Shown: positions 32,116 to 61,351 of the stretch, piece after piece
How positions within the stretch are numbered: position 1 is the stretch's first letter
Layout: each line of letters starts with the position of its first letter
Source of the DNA: Bacteroidales bacterium
GTDB taxonomy: Bacteria > Bacteroidota > Bacteroidia > Bacteroidales > UBA10428
Direction: 5' to 3'
NCBI GenBank assembly: GCA_016930375.1
Contig: JAFGGU010000035.1
Location: 1-64,000, forward strand
Length of the DNA: 64,000 bases
Notes under the pieces: generated by a model
The model's database searches: none
The model's input: the letters and a program-made list of their open reading frames with translations, nothing else
Told to the model about the DNA's origin: nothing
Program-made: the position numbers and the translations under genes

Positions 32116-35100
32116 ATGAGATTTATGAACAGAGCAGTAATGTTGGTTGTGTTTGTGGCAGTAACACAACTCATGTTGGCATTGATCCAACCTTATGCCT
32201 TATCAGCGCAGGACATACAAGTTTCAGGAATGGTCACTTCCTCTGATGATGGGAGTCCTCTTCCGGGGGTGTATGTAAAAATCAGCGGGACAAACAACGG
32301 TACAGCAACGGATATTGATGGCAAATTTCAGCTTTCAGTTCCTGCCAATGCAAAATTGTTATTTTCCTTTATTGGCTATAAAGAACAGGAAATTGAAGTT
32401 CATGGTCAGTCTGTGATTAACGTGGTGCTGGAAACAGATGTAACCATGGTGGATGAGGTGGTTGTTACCGCATTGGGAATCACCAAATCAAAAAAATCAC
32501 TGGGATATGCCGTGGCGGACTTCAGCAATGAGGATCTCGAAAACCGGCAGGTCATTGACGCTACACAGGCATTGACCGGAAGGGTGGCAGGCGTCTCCAT
32601 ATTTTCTACCTCCGGCTCTCCAGGGGCTTCCACAAGTGTCATTGTGAGAGGACTATCATCCATAACACAAAGTACCCAGCCGCTCTATATTATCGATGGG
32701 GTGCCGGTGAATAACCAATACGCAAGTGGCAACAGCACACAGGCCATGACAACGGCCAATTTAACCGTTGACTTTGGCAATGCAGCTTCTGATATAAATC
32801 CTGCAGATATTGAGACCATTAGCGTACTGAAAGGTGCTGCAGCTACCAGTCTGTATGGCTCACGTGCAGCCAACGGAGTTATTCTCATAACCACCAAGAG
32901 CGGGAAAAAGAATCAGAACCTGAAGGTCGATTTTTCATCTTCTTACACAGTAACGACAGTAGGCCGTTTACCCTATTACCAGAAACGGTTCGGACAAGGG
33001 TGGAGCGGACACTTTGCCTACGAGGAGAACGGCAGCTGGGGACCTGTAATGGACGGAGCCATGAGGTTAACGGGAAATGTGGTGGACAATTCACAGCGTC
33101 TTATGCCATTCAAGTTCCAGGAAAACGGTCTGCGGGACTTTTTTGAGTACGGCTCCGCTTTTAATAATGCCATCGCCATATCCGGCGGAACGGACAAGAT
33201 AGGATATTACGTCTCCTTTGCCAATACAACACAGGATGGAGTTATTCCGGGGGACGCTGACGTTCTGAACAGAAATTCTCTGACGGTAAAGGCCAATGGC
33301 GGCAATGAAAAAACCAGGATCAGCTTCAGCTCATCCTATACCAATAAAAAGATCAGCGCCGTGGCAACAGGCCAGGGAGATGATGCCGGCGGAGGAAAAG
33401 CTGTATTCCAGGAATTGCTCGGTACGCCGGTAAACCATTATATCCCTTTGTACAGGGATTACAACAATAAATTCGATAATCTGGATAATTACTTTAATTT
33501 ATATACACAGAATCCCTATTTCGTTATTAATGAAAATGGTAACGATTTTGAACAGGACAGACTGATCAGCAGTCTGGACCTGAGCCGCAAAATTCTCGGA
33601 GGTCTTAGTGTTTCCTGGAGAGGAGGAGTAGATCAGTACAGCAATTTCTACAAAAGGTATGGCGCGGTAACTCATAAAACTCCCGGCTCTCCCAATTCCT
33701 CCGAAAATGATGTGGCCGGCATGGTGAAAGAGGAGGGAAGGACCGTTAGCCAGTTGAATTCCGATTTGTTAATCACCTATGACGGTAAGCTCAATATAGG
33801 AGACCAATTCCTGGAATACAACATTGTATTGGGGAATAACATCAACCAAAGAACCTCTACCAGGCTAACAACTATTGCGAGGGGTCTTGTGGTTCCCGAA
33901 TACTATAGCGTTACCAATATCAGTGGGAGCGCCGATGTTTCAACTTACAGGGAAAAAAGGCGTTCAGTAGGGCTGTTTGGAACGGTCGCCCTGAATCTCG
34001 GGGATTTCCTTTTCGTGCAGTTTAGCGGGAGGAATGACTGGTCATCCACCCTTCCCAAGGAAAACAATTCTTTCTTCTATCCCGGTGTAAACCTGGGATT
34101 CATATTCTCCGAGTTTCTGCCCAAGGGATTTCTGACTTATGGAAAATTAAGGGCAGGATATGCCCTGGCCGGCAACGATGCTCCGGCGTATTCCCTGGAT
34201 CCGTTTTACCGCGCCGCCATTCTGCGAAATGGTGGTTACGGAGTTACCAATTATCCGGTTGGTGGGGTGGCTGCTTTTGAAAAATACCGGCAGCTGGGTA
34301 ATCCGAATCTGAAAAATGAGCTGTCCAAGGACTTTGAAATCGGAACAGAATTAAGGTTCTTCAGCAACCGCATAGGACTGGATCTGGCCTATTATAAAAA
34401 GGTAACCACTGATTTGATTTTTGATGCCACCATTGCCGGTTCATCGGGATTCGATATTCAGACAACAAACCTGGGGCAGATTACCAACAGCGGCATTGAA
34501 TTGAAACTGGATCTGAATCCTGTCAGATGGGGTGACTTCAGATGGGACCTGATCTATATCTATACCAAGGGCAACACCGTGCTGGACGAATTGTCGGCAG
34601 AACTGGGCGTTGAAGAATATGTGATAAACTCGGCCTATGAAACTGAATTTGTAGCCATACCGGGTGAACAATTGGGCCAGTTCAGGATACCGGATTACAA
34701 ATATTCACCAACCGGACAGGTTGTTGTTGGTGACAACGGACTTCCGCTGGAAGGTGAAAAAATACTCTATGCCTCGTCAGTTCCCGATTATAAAATGTCA
34801 CTCACGAATTCATTCTCATTCAAGGGTATAAACTTTTCCTTCTTATTTGATTATCAACAAGGTGGGCATATGTATTCCAATACGGCCAACAGTTGTTTCT
34901 GGAGCGGGAACAGTGAGCAATCCGTTACCAATGACCGGCGACCGTGGGTTATTCCCAATTCGGTCCGGGAAATTACGGATGAGGAAGGCGCTGTCACTTA
35001 TGTTGAAAATACCACACCTATCCTGGGCAACTGGCATGAGTACTATAACAGCAATACGAACAAGCCCATTGAAAGGAATAGAATCCTCGAAAAGACTTAT

Positions 35101-35343
35101 GTCAAACTTCGCGAAGTATCATTGAATTACAGTTTACCCGTATCGCTTGTGGAAAAGATAAAATTGACTACGATCAATGTCGGAGTATATGGCACCAATT
35201 TGTTTTTATGGACACCGGCATCAAACAGTTTTATCGATCCTGAAATGTCCACCTTTGGCAATGGCATTGAAGGACTTTTCGGCGAATTTGACGGTTTGCC
35301 GCAGACCAGAACGTATGGTGTAAAATTAAACGTAGTATTCTAA
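32116..35343 (+). CDS. SusC/RagA-type TonB-linked outer-membrane transporter
   Basis: A 1,075-residue outer-membrane receptor. The signal peptide ends near residue 32 (ALSAQ). Then come a carboxypeptidase-regulatory-like beta-sandwich (about 36-108, ending SVINVVLETD), a TonB-box-like DEVVVTALG near 114-122, the plug domain (about 128-255, with VIVRGLSSITQ and SRAANGVILITTKSG), and a 22-strand barrel to the C-terminus GVKLNVVF. It would import a ligand captured by the partner SusD lipoprotein using TonB energy. The ligand is unknown, as no polysaccharide-degrading enzyme is in the operon. The downstream order (SusD, BT_2262-like lipoprotein, lipid-binding-type lipoprotein) is the operon's frame. 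The start codon lies just after a long inverted repeat. Confidence 0.94.
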   Translation: MRFMNRAVMLVVFVAVTQLMLALIQPYALSAQDIQVSGMVTSSDDGSPLPGVYVKISGTNNGTATDIDGKFQLSVPANAKLLFSFIGYKEQEIEVHGQSVINVVLETDVTMVDEVVVTALGITKSKKSLGYAVADFSNEDLENRQVIDATQALTGRVAGVSIFSTSGSPGASTSVIVRGLSSITQSTQPLYIIDGVPVNNQYASGNSTQAMTTANLTVDFGNAASDINPADIETISVLKGAAATSLYGSRAANGVILITTKSGKKNQNLKVDFSSSYTVTTVGRLPYYQKRFGQGWSGHFAYEENGSWGPVMDGAMRLTGNVVDNSQRLMPFKFQENGLRDFFEYGSAFNNAIAISGGTDKIGYYVSFANTTQDGVIPGDADVLNRNSLTVKANGGNEKTRISFSSSYTNKKISAVATGQGDDAGGGKAVFQELLGTPVNHYIPLYRDYNNKFDNLDNYFNLYTQNPYFVINENGNDFEQDRLISSLDLSRKILGGLSVSWRGGVDQYSNFYKRYGAVTHKTPGSPNSSENDVAGMVKEEGRTVSQLNSDLLITYDGKLNIGDQFLEYNIVLGNNINQRTSTRLTTIARGLVVPEYYSVTNISGSADVSTYREKRRSVGLFGTVALNLGDFLFVQFSGRNDWSSTLPKENNSFFYPGVNLGFIFSEFLPKGFLTYGKLRAGYALAGNDAPAYSLDPFYRAAILRNGGYGVTNYPVGGVAAFEKYRQLGNPNLKNELSKDFEIGTELRFFSNRIGLDLAYYKKVTTDLIFDATIAGSSGFDIQTTNLGQITNSGIELKLDLNPVRWGDFRWDLIYIYTKGNTVLDELSAELGVEEYVINSAYETEFVAIPGEQLGQFRIPDYKYSPTGQVVVGDNGLPLEGEKILYASSVPDYKMSLTNSFSFKGINFSFLFDYQQGGHMYSNTANSCFWSGNSEQSVTNDRRPWVIPNSVREITDEEGAVTYVENTTPILGNWHEYYNSNTNKPIERNRILEKTYVKLREVSLNYSLPVSLVEKIKLTTINVGVYGTNLFLWTPASNSFIDPEMSTFGNGIEGLFGEFDGLPQTRTYGVKLNVVF

Positions 35344-35360
35344 AATTTAAATATAAGAAG

Positions 35361-36881
35361 ATGAAGCACTTTACTATCATATTGAGCTTATTGTTCTTTG
35401 GCCTGTCAGGATGTGATGAATTCCTGGATGTAAATGAAAATCCGAATTTTCCCGACGACGTCGAAGATTATTTGTTGCTGCCTTCTGCCCAGGCAGGGGT
35501 TGCTGGTGTTATGAGCGCGGATTATGGCCTGATCGGGTCGTTTTGGGCACAGCACTGGGCACAAAACAATACATCATCTCAATACCAGACATTTGAGACC
35601 TATACCCTCAGTAGCAATGATAACAGGGTGGATGGCTCCTATCTTTCGATGTACAGGGATGGTCTGGGTGACAATGAAATCATTCATAAGAAGGCAGAGC
35701 AGGAGGAAAACTGGGGCCTTTATCTGATGACTTCCACGCTAAAAGCCTATGGATTTCAGTACCTGGTTGATTTTTATGGGAATGTACCCTATGATGAGGC
35801 ATTCAAAGGGGAAGAGGGGAATTTCACACCTGTTATTAATACGGGAGAACAGGTCTATGCCTCCATTTATGAATTGCTGAATACGGCACTGGAGAAAGAT
35901 CTTGATGGTTTTGCAGCTGCCAGGTACCGCCAGTATGATGTATTGCTGGATGCCGATATAGATGACTGGGTTGATTTTGCCAATACCATGAAACTTAGGA
36001 TAATCTTAAGACAGTATGCAGCCAATACAGCCTGGGCCAATACAGAACTGACCAATTTACTGGCTGAGGGTACATTTTTGACCCGGGATGTTGCGCTGAC
36101 CAATTTCGAAGATGTGGACAGCTAATCAAATCCGTTGTTTGAAGCCGATCAGCGCCAATTAAATACCGCCCAGAATATCAGGGCCTGCGCAACCTTCACC
36201 ACTTATCTGAAGGCAAATAATGATTCAAGGTTGCAGGCGCTTTTTGCAGTCATTGGTGGCAACATCGATGGCATAATTCCGGGATCGTATGAAATACCAA
36301 CAACGCAATGGATGGCGCCTGATGTTATCTCAAAGCCATTTTTAACCGCTACCATGCCGGTTTATTTGATGACTGTGGCTGAAACCAACCTTTTGCTGGC
36401 GGAAGCTTACCTGAGGCTGGGTGATATACCTGCAGCGGAAAGCCATTACAAAGAGGGCGTAATCAGTTCATTTGCCCGCATGGGAGCCGATACCACCGGC
36501 ATGCATTTGTTTTCAACCGTGTACCCATTCCCGGCCACCGATTTCAATGCCCGGTTAAAGGCTATCATTATGCAGAAATGGGTTGACGCCGCTGAAGGTC
36601 AAAGAGGCGCTGAGGCTTTCCTGGAACGCGTAAGAACCGGTTACCCGGAGCAGGCTGCACCCGAAGTTCAGAGCGAAATTCCGGAAGGGCGGGAATCGGA
36701 TCTGCCTGCATCATACATTCCCGGGACTTTAATCTACAGTAAAAAGGGCGCATCCAATGGCAATTTCCCTGTCAGGCTGCCTTATCCCGACAGCGAATTA
36801 AACTTTAATATCAATGCAGCTGCATACAAGGATATCCCGGATGCCACGGTTATGCAGACTAAAGTATGGTGGAACCAATAA
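35361..36881 (+). pseudogene. SusD/RagB-type lipoprotein, interrupted by in-frame TAA
   Basis: A SusD/RagB-family nutrient-binding surface lipoprotein of about 506 residues, with lipobox LSGC (Cys18) and VNENPN at the mature start. The reading frame has a TAA at 36123-36125, after codon 254. The very same frame then continues (SNPLFEADQRQLNTAQN) without gap to the normal C-terminus at 36879. Both halves match one continuous SusD-like protein, so one base substitution explains it; a frameshift does not. TAA ends many other genes here, so it is not a sense codon. A TTG at 36135 is not a believable restart for an exported protein. Either the gene is dead, or the base is a sequencing or assembly error or a strain variant. 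The start lies 17 bases after susC. Confidence 0.85.
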
Positions 36882-36892
36882 TATTTAATGCT

Positions 36893-37642
36893 ATGAAACT
36901 CAGAAAATCAATGTATATATTATTCGCAAGCCTCCTGTTGCCATTTATGGGTTGCGAAAAGGAATATGAAGACGAATCGGGCATTACCTTTTTCCCTGTT
37001 TTTGAAATGGAAGGTGAATCGGAAATGATTCATACCATCGGAGTGCCCTATACCGATGGCAGTGTAACTGCAACAGAGGACGGAAACCCTCTGGATGTCA
37101 GGGTCAGCGTAATTGGTGAATTTACAGGTTATAGCGGAACGACAGTGGATGTGGATGTAATAGACAAATATGTAATCAGCTATGCAGCTACCAATGCGGA
37201 TGGCTATGAGGGTGTAGCCACCCGGACCGTCTTCATTGCTCCGCCAAACGAAGATATGGTGACCGGACTGGAAGGCGTTTATCTGGCCAATGTTCAAAGA
37301 ACACCTGCCTTTGCTGTTTTACCCCAATACAGTGATATGAAGTACGTTTATATTCTCAAAACAGGCGACAAGACCTATGAGTTATCCTGTGCACTGGGTG
37401 GGTACTATTCTATCGGACGAGCTTACGGAACTGATTTTGCTTTCCAGGGGGCTGTAATAACCGCCAATGATATCCCGGCCAATAACTTTACCATAAGCCA
37501 GGCAACTGCCCCGGGATTCGGGAATGTGGCTGACATTTCTTCATTTACCGTTGATGCGGTTAATAAAAGAATCACATTTACGAGTACCGCAGATTTTGAC
37601 AACGGGGTTTTTCATGTACAACTGGAACAAGTTCAATATTAA
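36893..37642 (+). CDS. SusE-position lipoprotein, BT_2262/HYR-like
   Basis: A 249-residue surface-type lipoprotein with lipobox PFMGC (Cys21). An N-terminal Ig/HYR-like beta domain (about 35-115, YVISYAATNADGYEGVATRT) is followed by a C-terminal beta domain (about 120-249). This resembles BT_2262/DUF5011-type proteins found in SusCD operons, which extend from the surface and may help hold ligand. The assignment is by operon position and the HYR-like pattern; ligand unknown. The ATG at 36893 starts the signal peptide; an earlier frame at 36866 overlaps susD and is not used. It lies 11 bases after the susD stop. Confidence 0.7.
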   Translation: MKLRKSMYILFASLLLPFMGCEKEYEDESGITFFPVFEMEGESEMIHTIGVPYTDGSVTATEDGNPLDVRVSVIGEFTGYSGTTVDVDVIDKYVISYAATNADGYEGVATRTVFIAPPNEDMVTGLEGVYLANVQRTPAFAVLPQYSDMKYVYILKTGDKTYELSCALGGYYSIGRAYGTDFAFQGAVITANDIPANNFTISQATAPGFGNVADISSFTVDAVNKRITFTSTADFDNGVFHVQLEQVQY

Positions 37643-37653
37643 AAGCAAAACCT

Positions 37654-38169
37654 ATGAAAAACAGTATAATATTTCTGTTGATTACCGTCTTTCTGTTTAC
37701 ATCCTGCGATCTGAAAGATGATTTTGAGAATGAGGAATCACCGCTGGTGGAAATGGCCGGAGAATGGTATGTCCATTACGATCATAACGTTTATGGCCCT
37801 GATCCTTTCGGGGCTGGCTATACAAGGGTAGTAACCTACAACACATCCGCCGATGACGGCAATGAGATGTGGATCAATGACGAGGGCAATTTCTGGACCT
37901 ACCAGGTAAAAATACCCGTTGACCTGACAACCCTGACTTTTGGCAGTCAGGATACAGTGATCAATTATATCGATGGGTATGATATTAAAGTACTAGTCAG
38001 GAATGGCAAAATTATCAAGGATGCATCAACACGGGAATCCGGCGCAATTGCCGACAGCATTTATTTCGAAATGTGGTTTGAGGATCTGGAAGGCTCTACA
38101 GGAATTGCCGGAGATACACTGATTGTTTCGGGTTACCGAAGAACCGGATTTCTGGAAGATGAACCCTAA
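37654..38169 (+). CDS. Lipid-binding-type (PF12888-like) lipoprotein
   Basis: A 171-residue lipoprotein with lipobox LFTSC (Cys18) and a single lipocalin-like beta domain. The stretch EMAGEWYVHYDHN near 34-46 and the C-terminal DTLIVSGYRRTGFLED are typical of the Bacteroidota family named lipid-binding putative hydrolase. No hydrolase motif is evident. It ends the susCD operon, 11 bases after the previous gene and 11 before the terminator at 38181. It may form part of the surface uptake complex. Confidence 0.72.
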   Translation: MKNSIIFLLITVFLFTSCDLKDDFENEESPLVEMAGEWYVHYDHNVYGPDPFGAGYTRVVTYNTSADDGNEMWINDEGNFWTYQVKIPVDLTTLTFGSQDTVINYIDGYDIKVLVRNGKIIKDASTRESGAIADSIYFEMWFEDLEGSTGIAGDTLIVSGYRRTGFLEDEP

Positions 38170-38180
38170 ATGAAGCATTG

Positions 38181-38210
38181 AAAGGCTGTCCAAAAAAGAC
38201 AGCCTTTTTT
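38181..38210 (+). terminator. Intrinsic terminator of the susCD operon
   Basis: AAAGGCTGTC and GACAGCCTTTTTT form a stem of ten pairs with a seven-base A-rich loop, followed by a T-run. It begins 11 bases past the last stop codon of the operon. Confidence 0.92.
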
Positions 38211-41270: not shown

Positions 41271-41316
41271 TTTTGACCAGTTGGTTAAACCAAATGATTT
41301 AATTAAATGGTCAAAA
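41271..41316. promoter_or_regulatory. Nested dyads at the tetR start, probable autoregulatory operator
   Basis: TTGGTT-A-AACCAA (41281-41293) is a perfect dyad with an odd centre. It overlaps TTGACCAGTTGGTTAA, a 16-base dyad with one mismatch (41272-41287). An outer pair, TTTTGACCA (41271-41279) and TGGTCAAAA (41308-41316), runs into the start codon. Overlap with the start and the presence of a TetR gene make an operator for self-repression of the efflux operon the simplest reading. Confidence 0.6.
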
Positions 41317-41927
41317 CCCCTGAAACGCATTCCCAATCCACTGAGAATAAGATTCTCGAAGCGGCTAAGAAAGTCTTCATACTCCATGGACTGGAAGGCA
41401 CCAGCATGCAGCAGATCGCCAGTGAGGCCGGTATCAACAAATCGTTGCTGCACTACTATTTTAGAACCAAGGAAAAACTCTTTGACGCGGTTTTTACGTA
41501 TGCCTTCCACTATATCGTGCCCCAGATGGAAGGTATCCTGAGTTCAGACAGTGGTATTAATGACAAAATTGAACGAATTGTAACTGAATATATGGATATG
41601 TTGTCAGAGAACAAATTCATTCCCGCTTTCATACTGCATGAGATCAACAGGAACCCCGACAGGTTATACAACATTATGCAAAAATCCGGGATAAAGCCTG
41701 AAATGTTTGTCAACCAGTTTGTTAATGAGATTCAGCAGGGGAATATCCGACCAATTGATCCACGACAACTGATCATCAACATCCTGTCCATGTGTATTTT
41801 TCCGGTTGCAGCCAGACCTTTAATACAGAGGATCTTCTTCGGAAATAATGAAAACGCCTATCGTCAATTTCTGGAGGAAAGAAAAAAAGTAGTCAGTGAA
41901 TTCATTATCCAATCTATAAAGCCCTGA
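41307..41927 (+). CDS. TetR/AcrR-family transcriptional regulator
   Basis: A 206-residue repressor-type regulator. The N-terminal helix-turn-helix (about 14-60) has ILEAAKKVFILHGLEGTSMQ, then QIASEAGINKSLLHYYFRTK. The C-terminal ligand-binding domain is variable, as usual. It heads the efflux operon: the TolC-type gene starts one base after its stop. It likely represses the operon until an inducing compound binds. A nested dyad over its start (41271-41316) is a likely binding site. Ligand unknown. Confidence 0.93.
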   Translation: MVKTPETHSQSTENKILEAAKKVFILHGLEGTSMQQIASEAGINKSLLHYYFRTKEKLFDAVFTYAFHYIVPQMEGILSSDSGINDKIERIVTEYMDMLSENKFIPAFILHEINRNPDRLYNIMQKSGIKPEMFVNQFVNEIQQGNIRPIDPRQLIINILSMCIFPVAARPLIQRIFFGNNENAYRQFLEERKKVVSEFIIQSIKP

Positions 41928-41928
41928 T

Positions 41929-43203
41929 ATGAGAAAACTATTTCTGATACTTGCAGTTGTATCTTGGTATGCCGGGGTCTTTGGCCAGCATGCAGAACCA
42001 CTTACGATTGCCGATTGCCTGAGAATTGCCGGAGAACGCAGTCCGCTGAACCGGCAAAAGCAAATTTCCGGCGAAGCCTTATCCTTTAGGATCAAAAACC
42101 TGACCACCAACTGGTACCCGGCCATTGGCCTTAACGCACAGGCTACCTATAATAGCGAAACAATTGATTTTTCGGATATTCTGGAAAACATGCCCGTTAC
42201 CATACCCTCACCTCCGCTTGACCAGTACAGGATATGGGCAGATATCAACCAGCCATTGTATGATGGCGGCATCACCAGGGCGCAGAAAGACATTGAAAAG
42301 GCAAATTATGAAGCGGATATGCAGCAGGTTGAATCGGATCTGCTGCGCATAAGACAGCAGGTGAGCGTGGTTTATTTTTCCATTTTGATCACCGAGAAGA
42401 ACGCTGATGTTTTACGGGTTTCCCTGGATGAATTAAAGGAAAGAAAAAAAGCCGTTCAGGCCGGTGTGGTCCATGGGGTGCTGTTACCCGAGAACATGCT
42501 GGCCCTGGAAGCTGAAGAAATAAAGCTTGAACAAAAACTGACCGAATTAAAATTAAACAGGGTGCAGCTTTTTAAAACGATGTCCATTTTGCTCGACTCA
42601 ACCCTGACCGAAGAACAGACCATAACCGAACCTGTTGATCCGGGAAGCATGGATCAATCGGTTAATCGACCGGAATTGGTGTTATTCGACAAGCAAAAGG
42701 AGGTGCTCCTGGCGAACCAGAAACTGGTTTCATCTTCGGATCTTCCCAGGTTTTTTGCATATGGACAGACTGCCTATGGCCGGCCGGGCTACAATATGCT
42801 GAGCGATAAATTCCATACTTTCTATTCGTTGGGAATCGGTATGAAATGGAATTTCCTGAATTATGGAGATAACCGGAGACAGAAAAAAATACTGGATATC
42901 CAGAAAGAGGTGGTCGATATCAAAAAGAAAACATTTAATGATCAGTTAAACATACAGTTACTGACAGAAGTTACCAATCTGAAGAAATATGATGAACTCA
43001 TTGAGCAGGATAAAAAGATTCTGGAACTCAGAAAAGCAATCACTGCAGCCAGCCTGTCGAAACTCACCAGCGGAATCATCACTTCAAACGATTATTTGTC
43101 CGATCTCGATGCGGAAATCCTGGCAAAACTCCAGTATGAAAATCACAGGATCCTTAAACTGCAGGCCATATATAATTACAAGCTGCTACAGGGCAACTTA
43201 TAA
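41929..43203 (+). CDS. TolC-family outer-membrane efflux channel
   Basis: A 424-residue outer-membrane factor. A signal peptide (1-18, GVFGQ) is followed by the two-fold repeated helical and beta hairpin pattern of the TolC family, with long coiled-coil helices (about 120-230 and 325-424). The final segment, KLQAIYNYKLLQG, matches the common family end. It would form the exit duct for the adaptor and ABC exporter encoded next. It starts one base after tetR and ends 40 bases before the adaptor gene. Length is at the short end for the family. Confidence 0.9.
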   Translation: MRKLFLILAVVSWYAGVFGQHAEPLTIADCLRIAGERSPLNRQKQISGEALSFRIKNLTTNWYPAIGLNAQATYNSETIDFSDILENMPVTIPSPPLDQYRIWADINQPLYDGGITRAQKDIEKANYEADMQQVESDLLRIRQQVSVVYFSILITEKNADVLRVSLDELKERKKAVQAGVVHGVLLPENMLALEAEEIKLEQKLTELKLNRVQLFKTMSILLDSTLTEEQTITEPVDPGSMDQSVNRPELVLFDKQKEVLLANQKLVSSSDLPRFFAYGQTAYGRPGYNMLSDKFHTFYSLGIGMKWNFLNYGDNRRQKKILDIQKEVVDIKKKTFNDQLNIQLLTEVTNLKKYDELIEQDKKILELRKAITAASLSKLTSGIITSNDYLSDLDAEILAKLQYENHRILKLQAIYNYKLLQGNL

Positions 43204-43243
43204 AATGATAACTCAATTCGTTTAATACATTAATCAATTACCC

Positions 43244-44155
43244 ATGAAAAGTATACTGATCCATACACCCATGACGGTTTTAATTTTCCTGATCCTGTTG
43301 CTGATGCCTTCCGCCTGCCGCAATAATAACAACAAAGCAGACGCCTATGGCAATTTCGAGACTGATGAAGTGATCGTATCGGCACAGGCACAGGGCATTT
43401 TAGAGTTCCTCAATGTTGCAGAAGGCAGCACAATTGAAAAAGATCTGGTAATCGGCAAAATTGACACCTCTGTGCCAGCCATCAAAATGACTCAGCTGCA
43501 GGCGCAAAACCAGGTGATCAATGCCCGTCTGCATAATCTCGATGCGCAACTGAAAGTTCAGGAGGAACAACGTACCAATTTGCTCAGGGAAGTTGACCGC
43601 ATGGAAAAACTACTTCGGGAGAATGCTGCCACCCAGCAACAATTTGATGATATTACAGGCAGGTTGAAGGTGCTGGATTCACAGACAGAGGCCATCAGCA
43701 GCCAGAGAAACATTATACACGGGGAGCAGTCGGTTCTCAAAGCGCAGCTCAGCGAAGTAAAGAACCAGCTCGAGAAATGCCGCATTTCAAGTCCGCTGAA
43801 AGGAACGGTTCTTGAGAAGTATGTCGAGCCCGGCGAACTGGTCACCCCGGGCAAAGGTCTGTTTAAGGTGGCCGACCTGGATGAGATGGAACTTAAGGTA
43901 TACATCAGCGGCTCACAGCTTTCCTCGGTGGAAATCGGTGACTCACTGGATGTTATCATTGACGGGCCGGATGAAACCCTTCAAAAGCTTAAAGGCCGGG
44001 TGACCTGGATTGCTTCACAGGTGGAATTTACACCCAAAATCATCCAGACCCGCGACGAACGGATTAATATGGTCTATGCCGTTAAGATCAGCGTGAACAA
44101 TGACGGGAGATTGAAGATAGGGATGCCGGGGGAGGTGGTGTTTGGTAAAAAGTAA
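43244..44155 (+). CDS. HlyD-family efflux adaptor (lipoprotein)
   Basis: A 303-residue membrane fusion protein. Lipobox MPSAC (Cys25) anchors it at the membrane. A first biotinyl-lipoyl half (about 45-85, VIVSAQAQGILEFLNVAEG), a long coiled coil (about 85-170), the second lipoyl half (about 183-200, RISSPLKGTVLEKYVEPGE) and a beta-barrel follow. It is similar in type to YbhG/YhiI adaptors that pair with ABC-2 exporters. The last codons (GKK then TAA) are already part of a GTAAAAA heptad-repeat tract (44144-44190), so the C-terminus may have been remodelled by it. It bridges the TolC-type channel and the permeases. Confidence 0.9.
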   Translation: MKSILIHTPMTVLIFLILLLMPSACRNNNNKADAYGNFETDEVIVSAQAQGILEFLNVAEGSTIEKDLVIGKIDTSVPAIKMTQLQAQNQVINARLHNLDAQLKVQEEQRTNLLREVDRMEKLLRENAATQQQFDDITGRLKVLDSQTEAISSQRNIIHGEQSVLKAQLSEVKNQLEKCRISSPLKGTVLEKYVEPGELVTPGKGLFKVADLDEMELKVYISGSQLSSVEIGDSLDVIIDGPDETLQKLKGRVTWIASQVEFTPKIIQTRDERINMVYAVKISVNNDGRLKIGMPGEVVFGKK

Positions 44156-44190
44156 ACGGTAAAAAGTAAACAGTAAAAAGTAAACGGTAA
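44144..44190. repeat. 7/14-bp tandem repeat at the HlyD gene end
   Basis: GTAAAAA and GTAAACG/GTAAACA units alternate with a 7-base period (14-base superperiod) from the last codons of the adaptor gene to about 44190. The TAA stop (44153-44155) is inside it. The unit closely resembles the TAAACAG array at 16157. Confidence 0.8.
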
Positions 44191-44191
44191 G

Positions 44192-44294
44192 AAAACCCTG
44201 TCAGCGGTGAGATTTGGCCTGGCGGGTGGAAAACCCTGACAGCGGTTGGTATATCTAAAATCTGAAATCTTCAATCTGCAATCTTAAATTTAAA
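44192..44294. repeat. 17-bp direct repeats and AATCTG heptads before the ABC gene
   Basis: Two 17-base copies, AAAACCCTGTCAGCGGT (44192-44208) and AAAACCCTGACAGCGGT (44230-44246), differ by one base and start 38 bases apart. Then comes another 7-base-period tract, AATCTGA AATCTTC AATCTGC AATCTTA (about 44261-44288), running almost to the ATG of the first ABC ATPase. The operon continues through this 139-base gap, so it would be in the mRNA. Confidence 0.75.
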
Positions 44295-45221
44295 ATGGTA
44301 TCAATTAACATAAACGGTGTAGATAAGTCCTACGGTCAGGTCAAAGCAGTGCAGCAGGCTTCTTTTGAGGTTCCCGGGAATTGCCTGTTCGGGTTGATCG
44401 GTCCGGACGGTGCGGGTAAAACCACATTGTTCAGAATGATCACAACGTTATTGATCCCTGACCAGGGTAATATATCCGTTTTTGGATTTGATACGGTCAG
44501 AGACTATCGCAAGATAAGGTTGTTCACAGGGTATATGCCGGGCCGGTTCTCATTGTACCCCGATCTGACGGTAGGGGAGAACATCTCCTTTTATGCCACG
44601 ATCTTCGGGACCACCGTGAAGAAAAACTACCACCTGATCAAACCGGTTTATTCCCTGCTGGAACCTTTTCGTGACCGGCTGGCCAGTAATCTGTCCGGTG
44701 GAATGAAACAAAAGCTGGCGCTTTGCTGCGCCCTGATCCATAATCCGAAATTGCTGGTGCTGGATGAACCCACCACAGGTGTAGATGCGGTATCGAGGAA
44801 AGAATTCTGGGAGACACTGCATCAACTGAAAGATTCCGGTATGACCATACTGGTATCCACGCCTTACATGGATGAGGCAGCCCGGTGCGACAGGATTGCC
44901 CTTATGCAGGCAGGCAGGATCATGGATCAGGATACGCCCGGGGAAATTCTTTCAAAGTTCAGGGTACCGCTTTTCGAGATCCGTGCCAATGACAGGTTAG
45001 GAACTTTGGAAATACTTCGCTCCATTCCGGAGATTAAGCGGGCTTATCTTTTCGGCCAGTATATTCACATTGCCACTGATTCTGAACGTCATGGTGCGGA
45101 ATGGCTGAAAACACAACTTTCAAACCGTGGAATTGCCAATGTTAAGATTACACCGGTCGTGGCCGATTTTGAAGATTGTTTTATCGATGCTGTTGAAAAC
45201 TATACAACTCACCGGACATGA
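44295..45221 (+). CDS. ABC transporter ATPase, first subunit
   Basis: A 308-residue ATP-binding protein of a drug/efflux-type ABC-2 exporter. Walker A GPDGAGKTT is at 36-44, the signature LSGGMKQK at about 136-143, Walker B LLVLDEPTTGVD at about 154-165, and an H-loop-equivalent STPYMDEA near 190, where the usual His is replaced by Pro in the STP(Y) pattern common in this group. A C-terminal extension of about 90 residues follows. Its stop overlaps the next ATPase start (ATGA). In E. coli YbhF the two ATPase halves are one protein; here they are separate genes. Confidence 0.93.
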   Translation: MVSININGVDKSYGQVKAVQQASFEVPGNCLFGLIGPDGAGKTTLFRMITTLLIPDQGNISVFGFDTVRDYRKIRLFTGYMPGRFSLYPDLTVGENISFYATIFGTTVKKNYHLIKPVYSLLEPFRDRLASNLSGGMKQKLALCCALIHNPKLLVLDEPTTGVDAVSRKEFWETLHQLKDSGMTILVSTPYMDEAARCDRIALMQAGRIMDQDTPGEILSKFRVPLFEIRANDRLGTLEILRSIPEIKRAYLFGQYIHIATDSERHGAEWLKTQLSNRGIANVKITPVVADFEDCFIDAVENYTTHRT

Positions 45222-45949
45222 ACCAGCGCAAGACCATTATATCAGTAAATAATCTGGTGAAGAAATTCGGCGGTTTTGTCGCCAATGACAATCTGACCTT
45301 TGATGTGCATGAAGGTGAGATTTTCGGTTTTCTGGGTGCCAACGGTGCAGGGAAGACCACAGCCATCCGGATACTTTGCGGTCTGTCATATCCCACATCC
45401 GGTAAGATTCTCGTATCCGGTTTTGATGTGTATACACAACGGGAAGAGATCAAAAGAAATATCGGGTACATGAGTCAGAAATTTTCCCTGTATGAAGACC
45501 TGAATATCCGCGAAAACATTCGTTTCTATGGCGGCATTTACGGCATGTCATCTTCGGCAATCCGCAGAAAGACCGATGAACTGATTGAGGAACTCGATCT
45601 GTCCGACATAGCCGGCACGCTGATCAGGGACATACCCCTGGGCTGGCGTCAGAAAGTGGCCTTTTCCGTGGCAGTTTTCCACGAACCCAAAATCGTATTC
45701 CTCGACGAACCAACAGGTGGTGTTGATCCGCTTACCAGGCGCCAGTTTTGGGAACATATTTACAGGGCTGCCGCCAGGGGCATAACGGTATTCATTACAA
45801 CACATTATATGGATGAGGCGGAATACTGTGAACGAGTTTCCATTATGGCTGAAGGCCGCATTGAAGCACTGGATTCACCCGAGAACCTGAAAAACAATTA
45901 CGGTGTAAAAACTATGGATGAGGTGTTTTTAAAAATTGCGAGAAAATGA
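45218..45949 (+). CDS. ABC transporter ATPase, second subunit
   Basis: A 243-residue ATP-binding protein with Walker A GANGAGKTT at 40-48 and Walker B IVFLDEPTGGVD at about 160-171, plus the H-loop ITTHYMDEA near 193. The signature region reads IPLGWRQK in place of LSGGQ. This altered form is usual for the second ATPase half of YbhF/RbbA-type transporters, so the protein is probably functional as a heterodimer with the preceding ATPase. It overlaps the upstream gene (ATGA) and the downstream permease (ATGA, 45946-45949) by four bases each. Confidence 0.93.
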   Translation: MNQRKTIISVNNLVKKFGGFVANDNLTFDVHEGEIFGFLGANGAGKTTAIRILCGLSYPTSGKILVSGFDVYTQREEIKRNIGYMSQKFSLYEDLNIRENIRFYGGIYGMSSSAIRRKTDELIEELDLSDIAGTLIRDIPLGWRQKVAFSVAVFHEPKIVFLDEPTGGVDPLTRRQFWEHIYRAAARGITVFITTHYMDEAEYCERVSIMAEGRIEALDSPENLKNNYGVKTMDEVFLKIARK

Positions 45950-47052
45950 AAGAGTTTCTGGGATTCGTTAAGAAAGAGTTTATTCATATATTCCGGGATA
46001 GCCGTACCCTGGTGGTGTTATTTGGATTGCCTGTGGCCCAGATTCTGATTTTCGGGTTTGTCATTCAGAATGAAATCCAGGATGTAAGGATTGCCATCCA
46101 TGATAAATCCAAGGATCCTGTGACTTTCGATATCACCAACAAATTATTGTCATCCGGATTTTTCAGGCTTGAAAAATACCTTACCTCGGAAAAGGAAACA
46201 GAGACTATTTTTAAAACAGGCAGGGTCAGAGAGGTTATCGTATTTGATGATGATTTTGCCGAAACCCTTAAAAGGGAAGGAACTGCAGGTATCCAGTTGC
46301 TGGCAGATGCTTCTGATCCCAATTCTGCGAGGATGATCGTTTCCTACACACAAGCCATAATAGCAACTTACCTGAAGGAGTTGAACCGCGATCACCAGCT
46401 TCCCCTGATCATTGAGCCCCGTGTCAGAATGATGTACAATGCCGATCTGAAGAGTGCATTTATGTTCGTGCCCGGAACCATGGCCCTGGTCCTGACCCTG
46501 GTATCAGCCATGATGACCTGTATAACGATCGTCCGCGAAAAAGAGACCGGAACCATGGAAGCCCTGCTGGTGTCTCCCCTGAGGCCTGTTCAGATCATTG
46601 CAGGCAAAGTCACGCCCTACATACTCTTATCCTGCATCAATGCTGTTGTTATTCTCATCCTCGGGTATTTCATTTTTCAACTTCCCATTCGCGGCAGTTT
46701 ATTGTTATTGTTCGGGGAGACCATATTATTTATTTCCCTGGCCCTTTCCCTGGGGATCATGATTTCAACCATGAGCAAAACCCAGGTCGTTGCCATGTTT
46801 TTCTCTGCCTTCGTTCTGTTACTGCCGACTTTATTGCTATCCGGCTTTATTTTCCCCATTGAGAACATGCCCAAAGTACTGCAGTGGCTTTGTTATGCCA
46901 TGCCGCCGAAGTATTTTATCACCATTTTACGGAGTGTAATGCTCAAAGGAACAGGTATAGCGGAGGTATGGAGGGAGACATTGGTTTTGACCGGAATGTT
47001 GGTTTTTTTCATCAGTGTGAGTGCAGTCCGTTTCAAGGTTCGATTACAATAA
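45946..47052 (+). CDS. ABC-2 type permease, first
   Basis: A 368-residue membrane permease of the ABC2_membrane_3 (YbhS/YbhR) type. A first helix (about 20-40, LVVLFGLPVAQILIFGFVI) is followed by a large extracytoplasmic domain (about 45-170), then five helices in the C-terminal half with the conserved EKETGTMEALLVSPLRP loop near 197-213. It has the usual DSR motif at the start (HIFRDSRT). It is coupled to the ATPase gene by a four-base overlap. It forms a heterodimer with the next permease. Confidence 0.92.
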   Translation: MKEFLGFVKKEFIHIFRDSRTLVVLFGLPVAQILIFGFVIQNEIQDVRIAIHDKSKDPVTFDITNKLLSSGFFRLEKYLTSEKETETIFKTGRVREVIVFDDDFAETLKREGTAGIQLLADASDPNSARMIVSYTQAIIATYLKELNRDHQLPLIIEPRVRMMYNADLKSAFMFVPGTMALVLTLVSAMMTCITIVREKETGTMEALLVSPLRPVQIIAGKVTPYILLSCINAVVILILGYFIFQLPIRGSLLLLFGETILFISLALSLGIMISTMSKTQVVAMFFSAFVLLLPTLLLSGFIFPIENMPKVLQWLCYAMPPKYFITILRSVMLKGTGIAEVWRETLVLTGMLVFFISVSAVRFKVRLQ

Positions 47053-47064
47053 CCCGCCGAATCC

Positions 47065-48186
47065 ATGAGAACAATTTTATATATTATTCAGAAGGAATTC
47101 AAACAGGTATTCAGAAACAAGACCATGCTCCCGATGATCTTTGTTTTACCCTTTGTTCAGTTGCTGATACTGGTAAATGCAGCGACCATGGACATGAAAA
47201 ACATTGACATGATCGTTGTCGACATGGACCTTTCAACATCCTCCCGCAGTTTAATCGAGAAGTTTTCGCATTCTCCCTTTTTTACTTTGCTGAAAACTAC
47301 TTTCTCCGTTGATGAGGCTGAAAACAGGATGCTGGAAAATGAAACGGACATGATCCTTGTCATTCCCGCCGGATTTGAGCATGAATTGTACGGGCAGGGT
47401 GCGACCAGCCTGCAGATCCAGGTAGATGCCATCAACGGGATGACAGCAGGCCTGATCAATGGCTATGCTACCCAGATCATCAACGGTTATACTTTGGAGC
47501 TGCTTTCAGAAACAGGCAGAAACGCACTGATCAACCTGATTCCGAAGAACATCACCGTTAATCATAGTTTCTGGTACAACAGCGAATTGGAATTCAAGCA
47601 TTACATGGTTCCGGGTATATTAACCATTCTTCTTACCATTATAGGTATGTTTCTGGCATCCCTGAACCTGGTTCGGGAAAAGGAAATGGGAACGATTGAG
47701 CAGATCAATGTCACACCAATACGTAAATATCAGTTTATCATCGGCAAGCTCGTCCCTTTCTGGATCATTGCCATGTTTGAACTGGCGTTCGGCCTGGGAA
47801 TCGGGAAACTCCTTTTTAATATTCCCGTCGAAGGAAGCCTTCTTCTTTTGTTTGCCTATGCTGCATTATACCTCGTTGCCGTTTTAGGGATGGGACTGCT
47901 GATTTCAACCCTGTCACAAACCCAGCAGCAGGCCCAGTTTCTGAATTTCTTCGTTTTGGTGACCTTTGTGATGATGAGCGGCATTTTCACCCCTGCTGAA
48001 AGTATGCCTCACTGGGCGCAGGATTTGAACACAATCAATCCGCTTGCATACTTCATGCGGGTAATCCGGATGATATTGCTGAAGGGATCTGAATTCAGGG
48101 ACGTAGCAGGCGATTTTCTGGCAATCGCCATCATGGCTGTAGTGCTCACGGCGCTGGCAACCTGGAGGTACAGGAAAATTGCATGA
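47065..48186 (+). CDS. ABC-2 type permease, second
   Basis: A 373-residue permease paralogous to the one before, with the same plan: helix about 20-42, large outer domain, then five helices. The loop EKEMGTIEQINVTPIRK (about 210-226) matches the family, and FKQVFRNKTMLP is near the N-terminus. It ends the efflux operon (tetR, tolC-like, hlyD-like, two ATPases, two permeases). The gap to the previous gene is 12 bases. Substrates of such systems include drugs, cations and other small amphiphiles; none can be named here. Confidence 0.92.
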   Translation: MRTILYIIQKEFKQVFRNKTMLPMIFVLPFVQLLILVNAATMDMKNIDMIVVDMDLSTSSRSLIEKFSHSPFFTLLKTTFSVDEAENRMLENETDMILVIPAGFEHELYGQGATSLQIQVDAINGMTAGLINGYATQIINGYTLELLSETGRNALINLIPKNITVNHSFWYNSELEFKHYMVPGILTILLTIIGMFLASLNLVREKEMGTIEQINVTPIRKYQFIIGKLVPFWIIAMFELAFGLGIGKLLFNIPVEGSLLLLFAYAALYLVAVLGMGLLISTLSQTQQQAQFLNFFVLVTFVMMSGIFTPAESMPHWAQDLNTINPLAYFMRVIRMILLKGSEFRDVAGDFLAIAIMAVVLTALATWRYRKIA

Positions 48187-51590: not shown

Positions 51591-51643
51591 TATGCGATAT
51601 TTACAATAAACTATTATTAATACACTTAAAATAACTATTGATT

Positions 51644-52453
51644 ATGAAAGGACAATCTTTAGCTGAAGCACTGAAATCTGCTTTTGTTTTGGTGGTTATG
51701 GTGCTGTGTTTGGTGGCCGGTTACCTCATCTGGAAAATGGTAATGGGTAATCCAATTAACTTCGAAGGTGGCAATCCTGAGGGGACTCCATTGCAAAACA
51801 ACTTCCTGGGGATTATTTACAAAGGTGGTTATATTGTTCCCATTCTGATGGCAGTGAATTTAATTCTTATCACCTTTATTATTGAAAGGTACATCAGTTT
51901 ATGGCGTGCCAAGGGACGCGGCAACCTGAATTCGTTTGTCCGTAATTTACGTGATCTTCTGAATAGCGACAAAATTGAAGAAGCCGAAAAACTTTGTGAC
52001 AAACAAAAAGGTTCACTGGCCAATGTAATGAAAGCCGGACTTCACAGGTACAGGGATCTCCAGGCCGACAAATCCTTGATGAATGACCAGAAAGTGCTGG
52101 CGCTTCAGAAAGAACTCGAAGAAGCTACTGCGCTTGAATTGCCTGTTTTGTCGCAGAATCTTGTCATCCTGTCCACCATTGCCTCCATCTCCGTGCTGAT
52201 CGGGCTGATCGGAACGGTTCTTGGTATGATCCGTGCATTCGGCGCTCTGGCAACCAGTGGCGCTCCTGATGCATTGGCCCTGGCAACAGGTATTTCCGAA
52301 GCCCTTGTTAACACTGCTTTTGGTATTACCGGTTCCACCCTGGCTCTGATTTTCTACAACTATTATCAGACCCGTGTTGACAGCATGACTTTTAAAATTG
52401 ACGAAGCTGGTTTCAGTCTTGCACAGACCTTTGCTTCTTCGTTGAAAAAGTAA
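51644..52453 (+). CDS. exbB: ExbB/TolQ-type proton channel subunit
   Basis: A 269-residue MotA/TolQ/ExbB membrane protein. A first helix at about 12-32, a second near 62-82, and the paired C-terminal helices at about 165-190 and 210-235 carry the channel signature LSTIASISVLIGLIGTVLGM (about 174-193) and TAFGITGSTLALI near 225-237. It forms the proton-driven motor that energises TonB. The first helix before the usual three is common in Bacteroidota. The ATG at 51644 starts it; the in-frame TTG just upstream is not used. It is followed by exbD after 58 bases. Confidence 0.93.
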   Translation: MKGQSLAEALKSAFVLVVMVLCLVAGYLIWKMVMGNPINFEGGNPEGTPLQNNFLGIIYKGGYIVPILMAVNLILITFIIERYISLWRAKGRGNLNSFVRNLRDLLNSDKIEEAEKLCDKQKGSLANVMKAGLHRYRDLQADKSLMNDQKVLALQKELEEATALELPVLSQNLVILSTIASISVLIGLIGTVLGMIRAFGALATSGAPDALALATGISEALVNTAFGITGSTLALIFYNYYQTRVDSMTFKIDEAGFSLAQTFASSLKK

Positions 52454-52511
52454 GTTTTATATCATTTGATAATGGGACGAATAAGTTTGTGGAATAATTA
52501 AATCTGGAACG

Positions 52512-53141
52512 ATGGGAAAAATTAAAATGGCTAAAAATCCGCCTAAGATCGATATGACTCCGATGGTGGACTTGTTTTTCCTTCTGCTTATCTTTTTTAT
52601 TTTGACGGCCACATTTCGTCCACAGGAAGCTGTTGCGGTTGATACGCCGAGTTCAAATTCGAATACGACAACCCCTGAATCGCATGTCATTACACTTACT
52701 GTCTCCAAAGACAATTTGGTATTCTTTAACATTGATAACGGTACCGACTCCTCGGAACATCTTCGCGCCAAGGTTTTGCAGGCAATGGGAAGTCAGTACA
52801 GCATCAGGTTTACACCTGCTGAGATCAAAAGATTCGAAGCACTGAATTCCTTTTCTCTGCCAATTGCTAAGATGAAGGACTGGCTCGATGCTAAAGATGC
52901 GAAAACACGTGATGCCATGCATACCGGATTGCCCATGGATTCCACGGACAACCAGCTTTTGATGTGGATAAGATTTGCCCGTCAATATTATCCCGATTTC
53001 GAGGTTGCCCTCAAAGGTGACCGCGATGCGGACTACAAAGAGGTGAAGAAGGTGATCGATATCCTGCAGGATAATAATGTGAATAAATTCAATCTCACCA
53101 CGAACCTCGAGGCTGATAAAGTTACTCTGGATAATATTTAA
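52512..53141 (+). CDS. exbD: ExbD-type motor subunit (paralogue 1)
   Basis: A 209-residue ExbD-type protein. A single membrane helix (about 18-40) contains the essential Asp20 in DMTPMVDLFFLLL, the proton-carrying residue of this family. A periplasmic domain follows. An extra helical insertion of about 60 residues (about 105-165) distinguishes it from short proteobacterial ExbD; this is typical of the phylum's long form. It is 11 bases from the second exbD. An alternative start at residue 6 (MAKNPP) is possible. Confidence 0.92.
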   Translation: MGKIKMAKNPPKIDMTPMVDLFFLLLIFFILTATFRPQEAVAVDTPSSNSNTTTPESHVITLTVSKDNLVFFNIDNGTDSSEHLRAKVLQAMGSQYSIRFTPAEIKRFEALNSFSLPIAKMKDWLDAKDAKTRDAMHTGLPMDSTDNQLLMWIRFARQYYPDFEVALKGDRDADYKEVKKVIDILQDNNVNKFNLTTNLEADKVTLDNI

Positions 53142-53152
53142 TGACATAAAAA

Positions 53153-53821
53153 ATGGCTGAAATAATTCAAAACGAAGGCGGAGGCAAGCAAAAAGGGAAA
53201 CGACGCATTAAACGGCACAGTACACACATCGACATGACTCCGATGGTGGACCTTGCCTGTCTGCTGCTTACTTTCTTCATGCTTACGACTGCATTTAGCA
53301 AAGCTAAGGTCATGGAGATCATACTTCCTGAGAGAACGCAGGAAGATGATAAGAACAGACCTCAGGTTGACGATTCGAAGGTGTTGAACCTCATATTGGT
53401 TGATAATGATAAGATTCTCTGGTACAACGGACTCGCTGATCCTACAAAAGCATCACTGCCACCACTGGTCGAAACCGATTTCAGTGCTGACGGGATTCGA
53501 AAAATTTTGCTCCAGCGTAACAGGGATCTGTTTGCCAAAATCGACGGCTTGAATAACGACATTATCACAGGTAAGATCAAACTTCCCCGGGATTCGGTTG
53601 ATGCCCGCATAGTCAACTTCAAAAGGGGTGACAAACTGGGTCCGGTTGTGCTGATCAAGGCGCACGACAATGTGAAGTATAAAAATGTTGTCGATATCAT
53701 CGATGAGATGTCCATTACCAATATCGCAAGTTATGCACTTGTAGATATAAATCATGTGGAAAATAAGATGGTGTCCAATTACTTTGCCGCGACTTCTTCA
53801 GGTGCCGGTAGTAACAAATAA
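53153..53821 (+). CDS. exbD: ExbD-type motor subunit (paralogue 2)
   Basis: A second ExbD, 222 residues, with the helix at about 29-52 and the essential Asp33 in DMTPMVDLACLLL. A basic N-terminal tail (KGKRRIKRHS) precedes the helix. The periplasmic domain carries an insertion like the first paralogue but with different sequence. The two proteins may occupy the two central peptide positions of the ExbB pore as a hetero-dimer. It lies 11 bases after the first exbD and 17 before tonB. Confidence 0.92.
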   Translation: MAEIIQNEGGGKQKGKRRIKRHSTHIDMTPMVDLACLLLTFFMLTTAFSKAKVMEIILPERTQEDDKNRPQVDDSKVLNLILVDNDKILWYNGLADPTKASLPPLVETDFSADGIRKILLQRNRDLFAKIDGLNNDIITGKIKLPRDSVDARIVNFKRGDKLGPVVLIKAHDNVKYKNVVDIIDEMSITNIASYALVDINHVENKMVSNYFAATSSGAGSNK

Positions 53822-53838
53822 TTCTAAATCTGTTAACC

Positions 53839-54624
53839 ATGGCTAAGAATAAGAAAGAGAAAGAATTCATAGCGGTAACCATCACCGACATGGTATTTGA
53901 AAACCGGAACAGGGAATACGGAGCTTTTGATTTACGAAAAAGATTCCATAAGTACCTGCTGATCGGCTTCCTGATTTCACTGATCGGGATATCGTCCGGT
54001 ATAGCTGTGCCTGTGATCAGGGCATACATGACCAAGGAACAAACAGTTGTGCTGGTAAAGGAAACCGTTGCTGAATTGCAGAATGTGCAAACAGATGATG
54101 ATATCGCTCCTCCTCCGCCACCGCCACCTCCTCCGGCAGCGGTGGAACAGCAGGTGAAATATACCGCACCGGTTGTTGTTGATACGGTTACGGAAGAAGT
54201 AACACTTGCTATTGTTGATGACGTCAGGGAGACGGTTTCGAATGAACCGGTTCCTGAAACCATTGAGGTGGTTGAGGAAGAAGAACCGGTGATCGTGGAA
54301 GAAGAGCCTGCCTTTGTTTTCGTTGAAGAACAGGCGACCTTCCAGGGTGGTGACATCAATTCCTTCAGGGATTGGGTTCAGAAGAACCTGGTGTATCCTC
54401 CGGTAGCTGTTGAAAACGGTATCTTTGGCAGGGTAACTGTTCAGTTTGCCGTCAACTCACGTGGTGATGTAACCGATGTGAAGATTCTGCGTGGTGTTGA
54501 CCCTTCGCTGGATAAGGAGACCATTCGTGTAATCATGTCCTCACCCAAGTGGGGAGCAGCCAAACAGGGCGGACGCGCTGTTAAACAGCAGTTCGTCATA
54601 CCTGTGATCTTCATGTTGCAATAG
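53839..54624 (+). CDS. tonB: TonB energy transducer
   Basis: A 261-residue TonB. One cytoplasmic-membrane helix (about 43-63) follows a basic N-terminus, then a Pro-rich spacer with eight consecutive Pro residues (about 93-100) and an acidic Glu/Val-rich stretch (about 125-165). The C-terminal domain (about 170-261) has DWVQKNLVYPPVAVENGIFG and GRVTVQFAVNSRGDVTDV, typical of TonB_C of this phylum. It links the ExbB-ExbD motor to outer-membrane receptors, such as the SusC-type and BtuB-type proteins in this window. It is the last gene of the cluster and ends at a strong terminator. Confidence 0.94.
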   Translation: MAKNKKEKEFIAVTITDMVFENRNREYGAFDLRKRFHKYLLIGFLISLIGISSGIAVPVIRAYMTKEQTVVLVKETVAELQNVQTDDDIAPPPPPPPPPAAVEQQVKYTAPVVVDTVTEEVTLAIVDDVRETVSNEPVPETIEVVEEEEPVIVEEEPAFVFVEEQATFQGGDINSFRDWVQKNLVYPPVAVENGIFGRVTVQFAVNSRGDVTDVKILRGVDPSLDKETIRVIMSSPKWGAAKQGGRAVKQQFVIPVIFMLQ

Positions 54625-59348: not shown

Positions 59349-59380
59349 CAGTAGTGTTCGGGAACAAACCAAAATTAATC

Positions 59381-61333
59381 ATGGACAGATTTTATCCTTT
59401 CTTTCTTCTTACATTACTGCCTTTCCTGATACCTTTACCTGTCTTTTCCCAGGAATTGCCCGTTAAGCAGATTCCGGAGGTCACCGTTGTAAAAGGCAAT
59501 CAGAAGTTCTTTTCCGATGATCAGACCATTTATAAAGTTGATCTTGAACTCATTCGTTTGGACAGGCATCAGAACCTGGGTTATTTTCTTGAAAAACAAA
59601 CTCCTGCACTGGTTAGATCCTACGGAAGCGCTGGTTCACTGGTATCGGTTTCACTCCATGGTGCCGGAAGCAACCACACTCAGGTCAACTGGAACGGTTT
59701 TCCTTTAAACTCTCCGACTACAGGTCAGGCAGATCTCGCGCTAATCCCTGCGGGTTTTATGCAGACCGTGGAGCTGATGAACGGTTCATCAGGAGCATTG
59801 TTTGGAAGCGGTACTTTTGGCGGTTCAATCAATTTATCCAACGAGCCCGACTGGAATAACAGGTTTGCCGCTCACTATTCCTTTGATGCCGGCAGTTTCG
59901 GGTCAAACGGCCATATGCTGAGCGTTCGCACCGGTGGTGAAAAATTGCAGTTTCAGTTGTCGGCCATCAGCGCAAAAGCAGAAAATGATTTCACCTATCG
60001 GGATCGTTACCGTTACGGATCGCCTGAAGTCAAAACACAACACAATGCTTACCGTTCAGTAGGGCTGATCCATAACATTTACCTGAACCTGAATAAGGGT
60101 AGCTACCTGGAAGCCGGTATGTGGTATCAGCGGAAAATCCTTGAAATTCCTGCTCTTATGGGGTCCTATAAAGAGAGCAATGCCCGGCAAAAGGACAGTA
60201 TTTTCAGATCTTACATGAGTTACCGGAAAATCACGGCAAAATCGGCACTGCTTGTCAGGTCAGCCTATTTCTCCGATTATTTAGGCTATACCGATAAAAA
60301 TCTCACTACGGATACATCCTATTCAATTGATTCCAGGATTGCCACCACCCGATGGATGAATGAGGCGGATTACAGGTATTACCTTTCATCGAAGCTGATT
60401 GTCGGGGGAGGCGCCATGTACAACAGGTTATCAGGCAATTCCGGCAATTACGGGGGCAGGATCACTGAACATGAATATGCCGTGTTTGGCAGTTTGAAAG
60501 TTAGCCTCTCTGATCTTATCATCAATGCAGGTGTGAGAAAGGAATTCTATGAAGGCCTGAATCCGGGTATACAATATTCCCTGGGTTTAAGATTCAGGCC
60601 CAATGAGCATTGGATTCTACGGTCAGGTTTCTCCAGCAAGTTCAGAAAACCGACTTTCAATGAAAAGTACTGGAGACCGGGAGGAAATTCACTTTTGCGG
60701 CCTGAAAAGGGCAGGGGAGGCGAAATCACTGCTGAATGGTCCTCAAAAGGAGACCAGGAACGTTCGTTGTGGCTCGAAGCCCAGATTACCGGTTATTATC
60801 AATGGATTGACAACTGGATTCAATGGGTGATCCGTGATTCGCTCACTCCTGTTGAATACAAGAAGGTTCATGCCCGTGGTATAGATACCCGGATGGAGTT
60901 GGGCTATCATTTAAATGAATTTGCAATTAAAGCATTTGTGAATTACGATTATAACCGCTCCGTGATCATCAGCACGTATGATAATAATCCGCTTTGCGAG
61001 GGAAATCAAATGACATACGTTCCTGTTCATACGGCAGGGGCTGGTCTTGAGGCAGTATATCATGGGTTTTTGCTGGGAATTTCCTCCTCTTATACCGGGT
61101 ACCGGGAAACCGTTGAAACTGCAGATGAAACACTTCGCCTGCCGGGATTTTACCTGATGAACATGGTGACAGGCATCCGCCGCGAAATTCTTGGCGCAGA
61201 TCTGGCATTCTTCTTCCGCATTGACAACATAACAGACAGATCCTATGAGGTTATCCGGTCTTTCCCGCTTCCGGGCCGTAACTACCATTTCACGTTGACC
61301 ATCGGATTACAAAAGATTACCTCTGACAATTAA
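59381..61333 (+). CDS. btuB: BtuB-like TonB-dependent cobalamin receptor
   Basis: A 650-residue outer-membrane receptor. The signal peptide (1-23, PVFSQ) is followed by a TonB box-like PEVTVVKGNQKF and a plug (about 45-165, with SHLHGAG-like VSLHGAGSNHTQVNW and LFGSGTFGGSINLS), then a 22-strand barrel. The C-terminus ends in RNYHFTLTIGLQKITSDN. The cobalamin riboswitch just upstream and the BtuG-like lipoprotein downstream make vitamin B12 or a corrinoid the likely substrate. The ATG at 59381 starts the signal peptide; an earlier in-frame ATG at 59354 lies within the leader and is not used. It overlaps no gene; the next starts 18 bases later. Confidence 0.88.
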   Translation: MDRFYPFFLLTLLPFLIPLPVFSQELPVKQIPEVTVVKGNQKFFSDDQTIYKVDLELIRLDRHQNLGYFLEKQTPALVRSYGSAGSLVSVSLHGAGSNHTQVNWNGFPLNSPTTGQADLALIPAGFMQTVELMNGSSGALFGSGTFGGSINLSNEPDWNNRFAAHYSFDAGSFGSNGHMLSVRTGGEKLQFQLSAISAKAENDFTYRDRYRYGSPEVKTQHNAYRSVGLIHNIYLNLNKGSYLEAGMWYQRKILEIPALMGSYKESNARQKDSIFRSYMSYRKITAKSALLVRSAYFSDYLGYTDKNLTTDTSYSIDSRIATTRWMNEADYRYYLSSKLIVGGGAMYNRLSGNSGNYGGRITEHEYAVFGSLKVSLSDLIINAGVRKEFYEGLNPGIQYSLGLRFRPNEHWILRSGFSSKFRKPTFNEKYWRPGGNSLLRPEKGRGGEITAEWSSKGDQERSLWLEAQITGYYQWIDNWIQWVIRDSLTPVEYKKVHARGIDTRMELGYHLNEFAIKAFVNYDYNRSVIISTYDNNPLCEGNQMTYVPVHTAGAGLEAVYHGFLLGISSSYTGYRETVETADETLRLPGFYLMNMVTGIRREILGADLAFFFRIDNITDRSYEVIRSFPLPGRNYHFTLTIGLQKITSDN

Positions 61334-61351
61334 CCAATTATTTTTTTAATT

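Follow-up and report, generated by a model that had tools for sequence, protein, structure and literature searches.

The window, by which we mean the whole stretch of 64,000 nucleotides that was analysed, carries a four-gene unit at 32116-38169, in the order susC, susD, a BT_2262-like gene and a BT_2261-like gene, followed by a terminator-like hairpin. Its features are as follows.

32116..35343, + strand: susC-like TonB-dependent transporter, intact (1075 aa; Pfam CarbopepD_reg_2, Plug and TonB_dep_Rec; phmmer to BT_2264 chain 5fq6_B, E 3e-202)
35361..36125, + strand: susD-like 5′ part (254 aa before the premature stop; LSGC lipoprotein signal; PF12771, E 2.4e-25)
36123..36125, + strand: premature in-frame TAA (codon 255 of the susD-like frame; Lys in five close orthologues and in BT_2263)
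36126..36881, + strand: susD-like 3′ part (251 aa in the same frame, without further lesions; PF12741, E 7.9e-21; PF12771, E 1.9e-14)
36893..37642, + strand: BT_2262-like Ig-domain lipoprotein, intact (PF16403; 5fq7_G, E 1e-11; lipoprotein signal)
37654..38169, + strand: BT_2261-like Lipid_bd lipoprotein, intact (PF12888; 5fq6_E, E 1.5e-26)
38180..38208, + strand: terminator-like hairpin of 11 pairs, closing the four-gene unit

For the BT_2262-like gene, a start at 36893 was favoured over one at 36866. No longer stem was found than that of the hairpin, which sits 11 bases past the last cassette gene, although such matches overall are not above shuffled expectation. When sequences of solved structures were searched, all four genes matched PDB entries 5fq6, 5fq7 and 5fq8 (SusD with an E value of 9e-43), and the nearest solved relative is the BT_2263/BT_2264 complex. 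SusC is 59-61% identical to five orthologues, and the gene order is common to all five loci. Judged by homology, the cassette encodes an outer-membrane importer of the SusCD type together with two accessory lipoproteins, and is homologous to BT_2264-BT_2261.

Three further groups of genes were seen elsewhere in the window. An exbB-exbD-exbD-tonB cluster lies at 51638-54624 with all frames open, and a btuG-like pair, in which a DUF5074 gene comes after a TonB-dependent receptor, lies at 59354-62428, also with open frames. At 41307-48186, a TetR regulator, an outer-membrane efflux protein, a HlyD-type fusion protein, two ABC ATPases and two ABC-2 permeases stand in a row; this is an ordinary export operon.

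susD is a single domain split by one stop codon

Positions 35361-36881 of the + strand read as a single frame of 507 codons, in which TAA occurs twice: internally, at codon 255, and at the end. The preliminary description held that the TAA at 36123-36125 is the only defect of a 506-residue SusD/RagB frame, that SNPLFEADQ continues directly after it, and that an intact susC and two accessory lipoproteins flank the gene. These points all hold: translation gives one internal stop in a 506-codon SusD-like_2 frame, SNPLFEADQ follows it with no change of frame, and the three neighbouring frames are intact and supported by Pfam. The protein starts with a lipoprotein signal and its cysteine (MKHFTIILSLLFFGLSGC, by inspection), and susC lies immediately upstream.

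The 5′ part covers positions 10-210 of the PF12771 profile and the 3′ part covers positions 234-397, and as these are consecutive stretches, the two parts represent one domain split in two. In a six-frame search of the whole genome with PF12771, susD is correspondingly recovered as a single full-length match across both halves (positions 10-397 of 415, 155.9 bits), with one TAA inside. Continuity of the frame past the stop is not a matter of chance, since five close orthologues read through this point in frame. Because of the TAA at codon 255, susD lacks the continuous open reading frame of the SusD-like_2 family. It is an interrupted member of that family and should be classed as one, rather than as a functional SusD.

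The site in homologues and the preservation of the 3′ half

Alignment to close homologues at codon 255, which had been suggested earlier, gave a clear expectation for the residue. The five close orthologues of susD, which are ~60% identical, have intact frames and lie in the same four-gene cassette, all have Lys here (AAA in four, AAG in one), as does the intact BT_2263 of Bacteroides thetaiotaomicron. A further 17, more distant homologues mostly have Lys or Arg at the site and never a stop, so that a stop was found at this position in 0 of the 22 aligned homologues.

The sequence downstream of the stop is as well preserved as that upstream. Against the five orthologues, the 5′ half shows 57-58% identity and the 3′ half 59-65%; in both, the differences are concentrated at third codon positions, and to an equal degree. 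By our estimate, a random single substitution in the 3′ part has a ~4.4% chance of making another stop; neither a second stop nor a frameshift is present in that part. This argues that the stop would either have arisen very recently relative to the split from the five orthologues, or be absent from the real genome. As a close SusD orthologue is absent from 22 other genomes of the family and from 393 genomes sampled from the order, the age of the stop is bounded only by the missing companion lesions. The same survey bears on the distribution of the cassette at 32116-38169: the best matches of its SusD are Draconibacterium-type records, with none close in the 22 family genomes, and the lack of a comparable match in the family and order genomes together indicates a patchy distribution. 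Horizontal transfer of the cassette is possible.

Stop codons, recoding and other copies in the genome

The assembly is a bin of 112 contigs and is 85% complete. A scan for mid-gene stops by codon usage, covering 824 kb (21% of the genome), gave the susD TAA as the only clear case, at a sensitivity of ~64% that means further cases may have been missed. The scan yielded 35 candidates, among which six others lacked a nearby ATG; by eye, these six looked like genes that end before another start, or like frames with no coding character. No general excess of interrupted genes was seen in the scanned stretches. No intact second copy of this susD was found in the genome; apart from susD itself, a full-length SusD-like_2 match was obtained for one gene only, which is a distant paralogue on contig 18.

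TAA is in ordinary use as a stop in this organism. It terminates 165 of 290 long ORFs in the sampled stretches, as well as susC, exbB and the btuG-like DUF5074 gene in the window, and the genome encodes two release-factor-type proteins. Among the tRNAs called, none has a stop-reading (UAA) anticodon, with five of 32 candidate tRNA loci lacking an ARAGORN call in this 85%-complete genome. The other SusD-type genes found with two Pfam models in the bin have no internal stops. A change of genetic code or a suppressor tRNA was rejected on the evidence of stop usage, release factors and the called tRNAs; the earlier exclusion of TAA reassignment, made from the stops of three neighbouring genes, is thus borne out, with the other SusD genes and the relatives in agreement.

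Consequence for import

SusD proteins act as lids that open and close over SusC in a ‘pedal bin’ mechanism, and deletion of SusD impairs growth on levan in B. thetaiotaomicron (PMC7782687). For other SusD-like proteins, deletion abolishes growth on the cognate glycan, and the protein is needed for uptake even where it does not bind ligand (PMC9599597). The preliminary description proposed that loss of SusD would disable ligand capture while leaving the transporter in place. The role in capture can be kept, but not a loss of capture only: as SusD is also the transport lid, truncation at residue 254 should disable import itself. Effects on the two downstream lipoproteins are possible.

The reading that we favour, at somewhat better than an even chance, is that the sequenced genome or strain carries one nonsense substitution in susD, at codon 255, which would leave a truncated SusD and strongly reduce import via its SusC. 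The TAA is read directly from the assembly, and from it we infer the nonsense change in the cell. Translation would stop after 254 residues with loss of the C-terminal half of the SusD domain, and the fragment would be expected to misfold or to fail as a lid. Going by what happens when other SusD proteins are deleted, import through this one SusC would then drop strongly. The mutation would be recent enough that the 3′ half shows no relaxation compared to the 5′ half.

A serious competitor, to which we give a little less than an even chance, is that most or all cells carry an intact gene, the TAA having come from an error in the consensus or assembly, or from a minority strain in a mixed population. 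The equal constraint on the two halves, with no other lesion, is consistent with this, as is the bin quality of the assembly. Low-coverage assemblies often contain spurious internal stops: at ≤10-fold coverage, one or more false pseudogenes are expected per Mbp (PMC11017572). One clear stop in 824 kb is close to this rate and counts against a real mutation. On the other side, the lesion is a base substitution, no homopolymer of ≥5 bases lies close by, and the scanned stretches hold no general surplus of interrupted genes. Decay of the locus, a mixed population and a base error had all been put forward earlier, and any of the three may apply, although decay must be narrowed: the cassette shows no damage beyond codon 255, so any decay would only just have begun.

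Persistence of the frame and of constraint beyond the stop could also be expected if the stop were read through or recoded, by a suppressor tRNA, programmed readthrough or a code change, to give full-length SusD, and in-gene stops that bear signs of readthrough have been proposed for bacteria (PMC7918605). We consider this very improbable, as no relative carries a stop at the site, the tetranucleotide TAAT is a normal terminator here (50 of the 290 long ORFs), and the release factors, called tRNAs and uninterrupted SusD-type genes described above all speak against it. Equally improbable is a split SusD whose halves serve as two separate proteins. SusD profiles do match both halves, but the first 25 codons of the 3′ part contain an internal TTG, at 36135, and no ATG. 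The translation of this part also lacks a signal peptide, so that the product would be unable to get to the cell surface. The gene is not split in any relative, and such use of the 3′ half was dismissed. Least probable of all is that the stop is kept and weakly suppressed, tuning the amount of SusD lid relative to SusC.

For annotation, this susD is best flagged as interrupted, and substrate-import predictions for the organism held back pending confirmation of the base. If the nonsense mutation is real, it provides one more natural susD knockout, with susC and two lipoproteins remaining, which would offer a useful setting in which to study how SusC behaves when the lid is missing.

Comparison with known systems

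The closest characterised counterpart is BT_2264-BT_2261 of B. thetaiotaomicron (PDB 5fq6, 5fq7 and 5fq8), which has homologues of all four components in the same order and Lys at the stop site; here, in contrast, susD is interrupted by TAA at codon 255, and the sequences have diverged. The BT_2263/BT_2264 structure contains peptides, and a Bt2263/64-peptide complex is mentioned in PMC7782687; peptide as ligand is known only for this solved homologue. The five orthologous cassettes (L032-L036, from Draconibacterium and other Bacteroidota) share gene order and ~60% identity of SusC and SusD, but unlike the window’s susD theirs are all intact. Nonsense mutations in susD arose during an Elizabethkingia anophelis outbreak (PMC5458099), and a ragB/susD frameshift arose in evolved Flavobacterium johnsoniae (PMC10197871). 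In these cases, as here, a Bacteroidota strain has a susD-family gene with a premature stop, although those alleles were shown in sequenced isolates, whereas the stop in the window is known from one assembly. Loss-of-function susD alleles in Bacteroidota are thus already documented, and the present case represents either an ordinary loss-of-function change of very recent date or an assembly error, and not a new mechanism.
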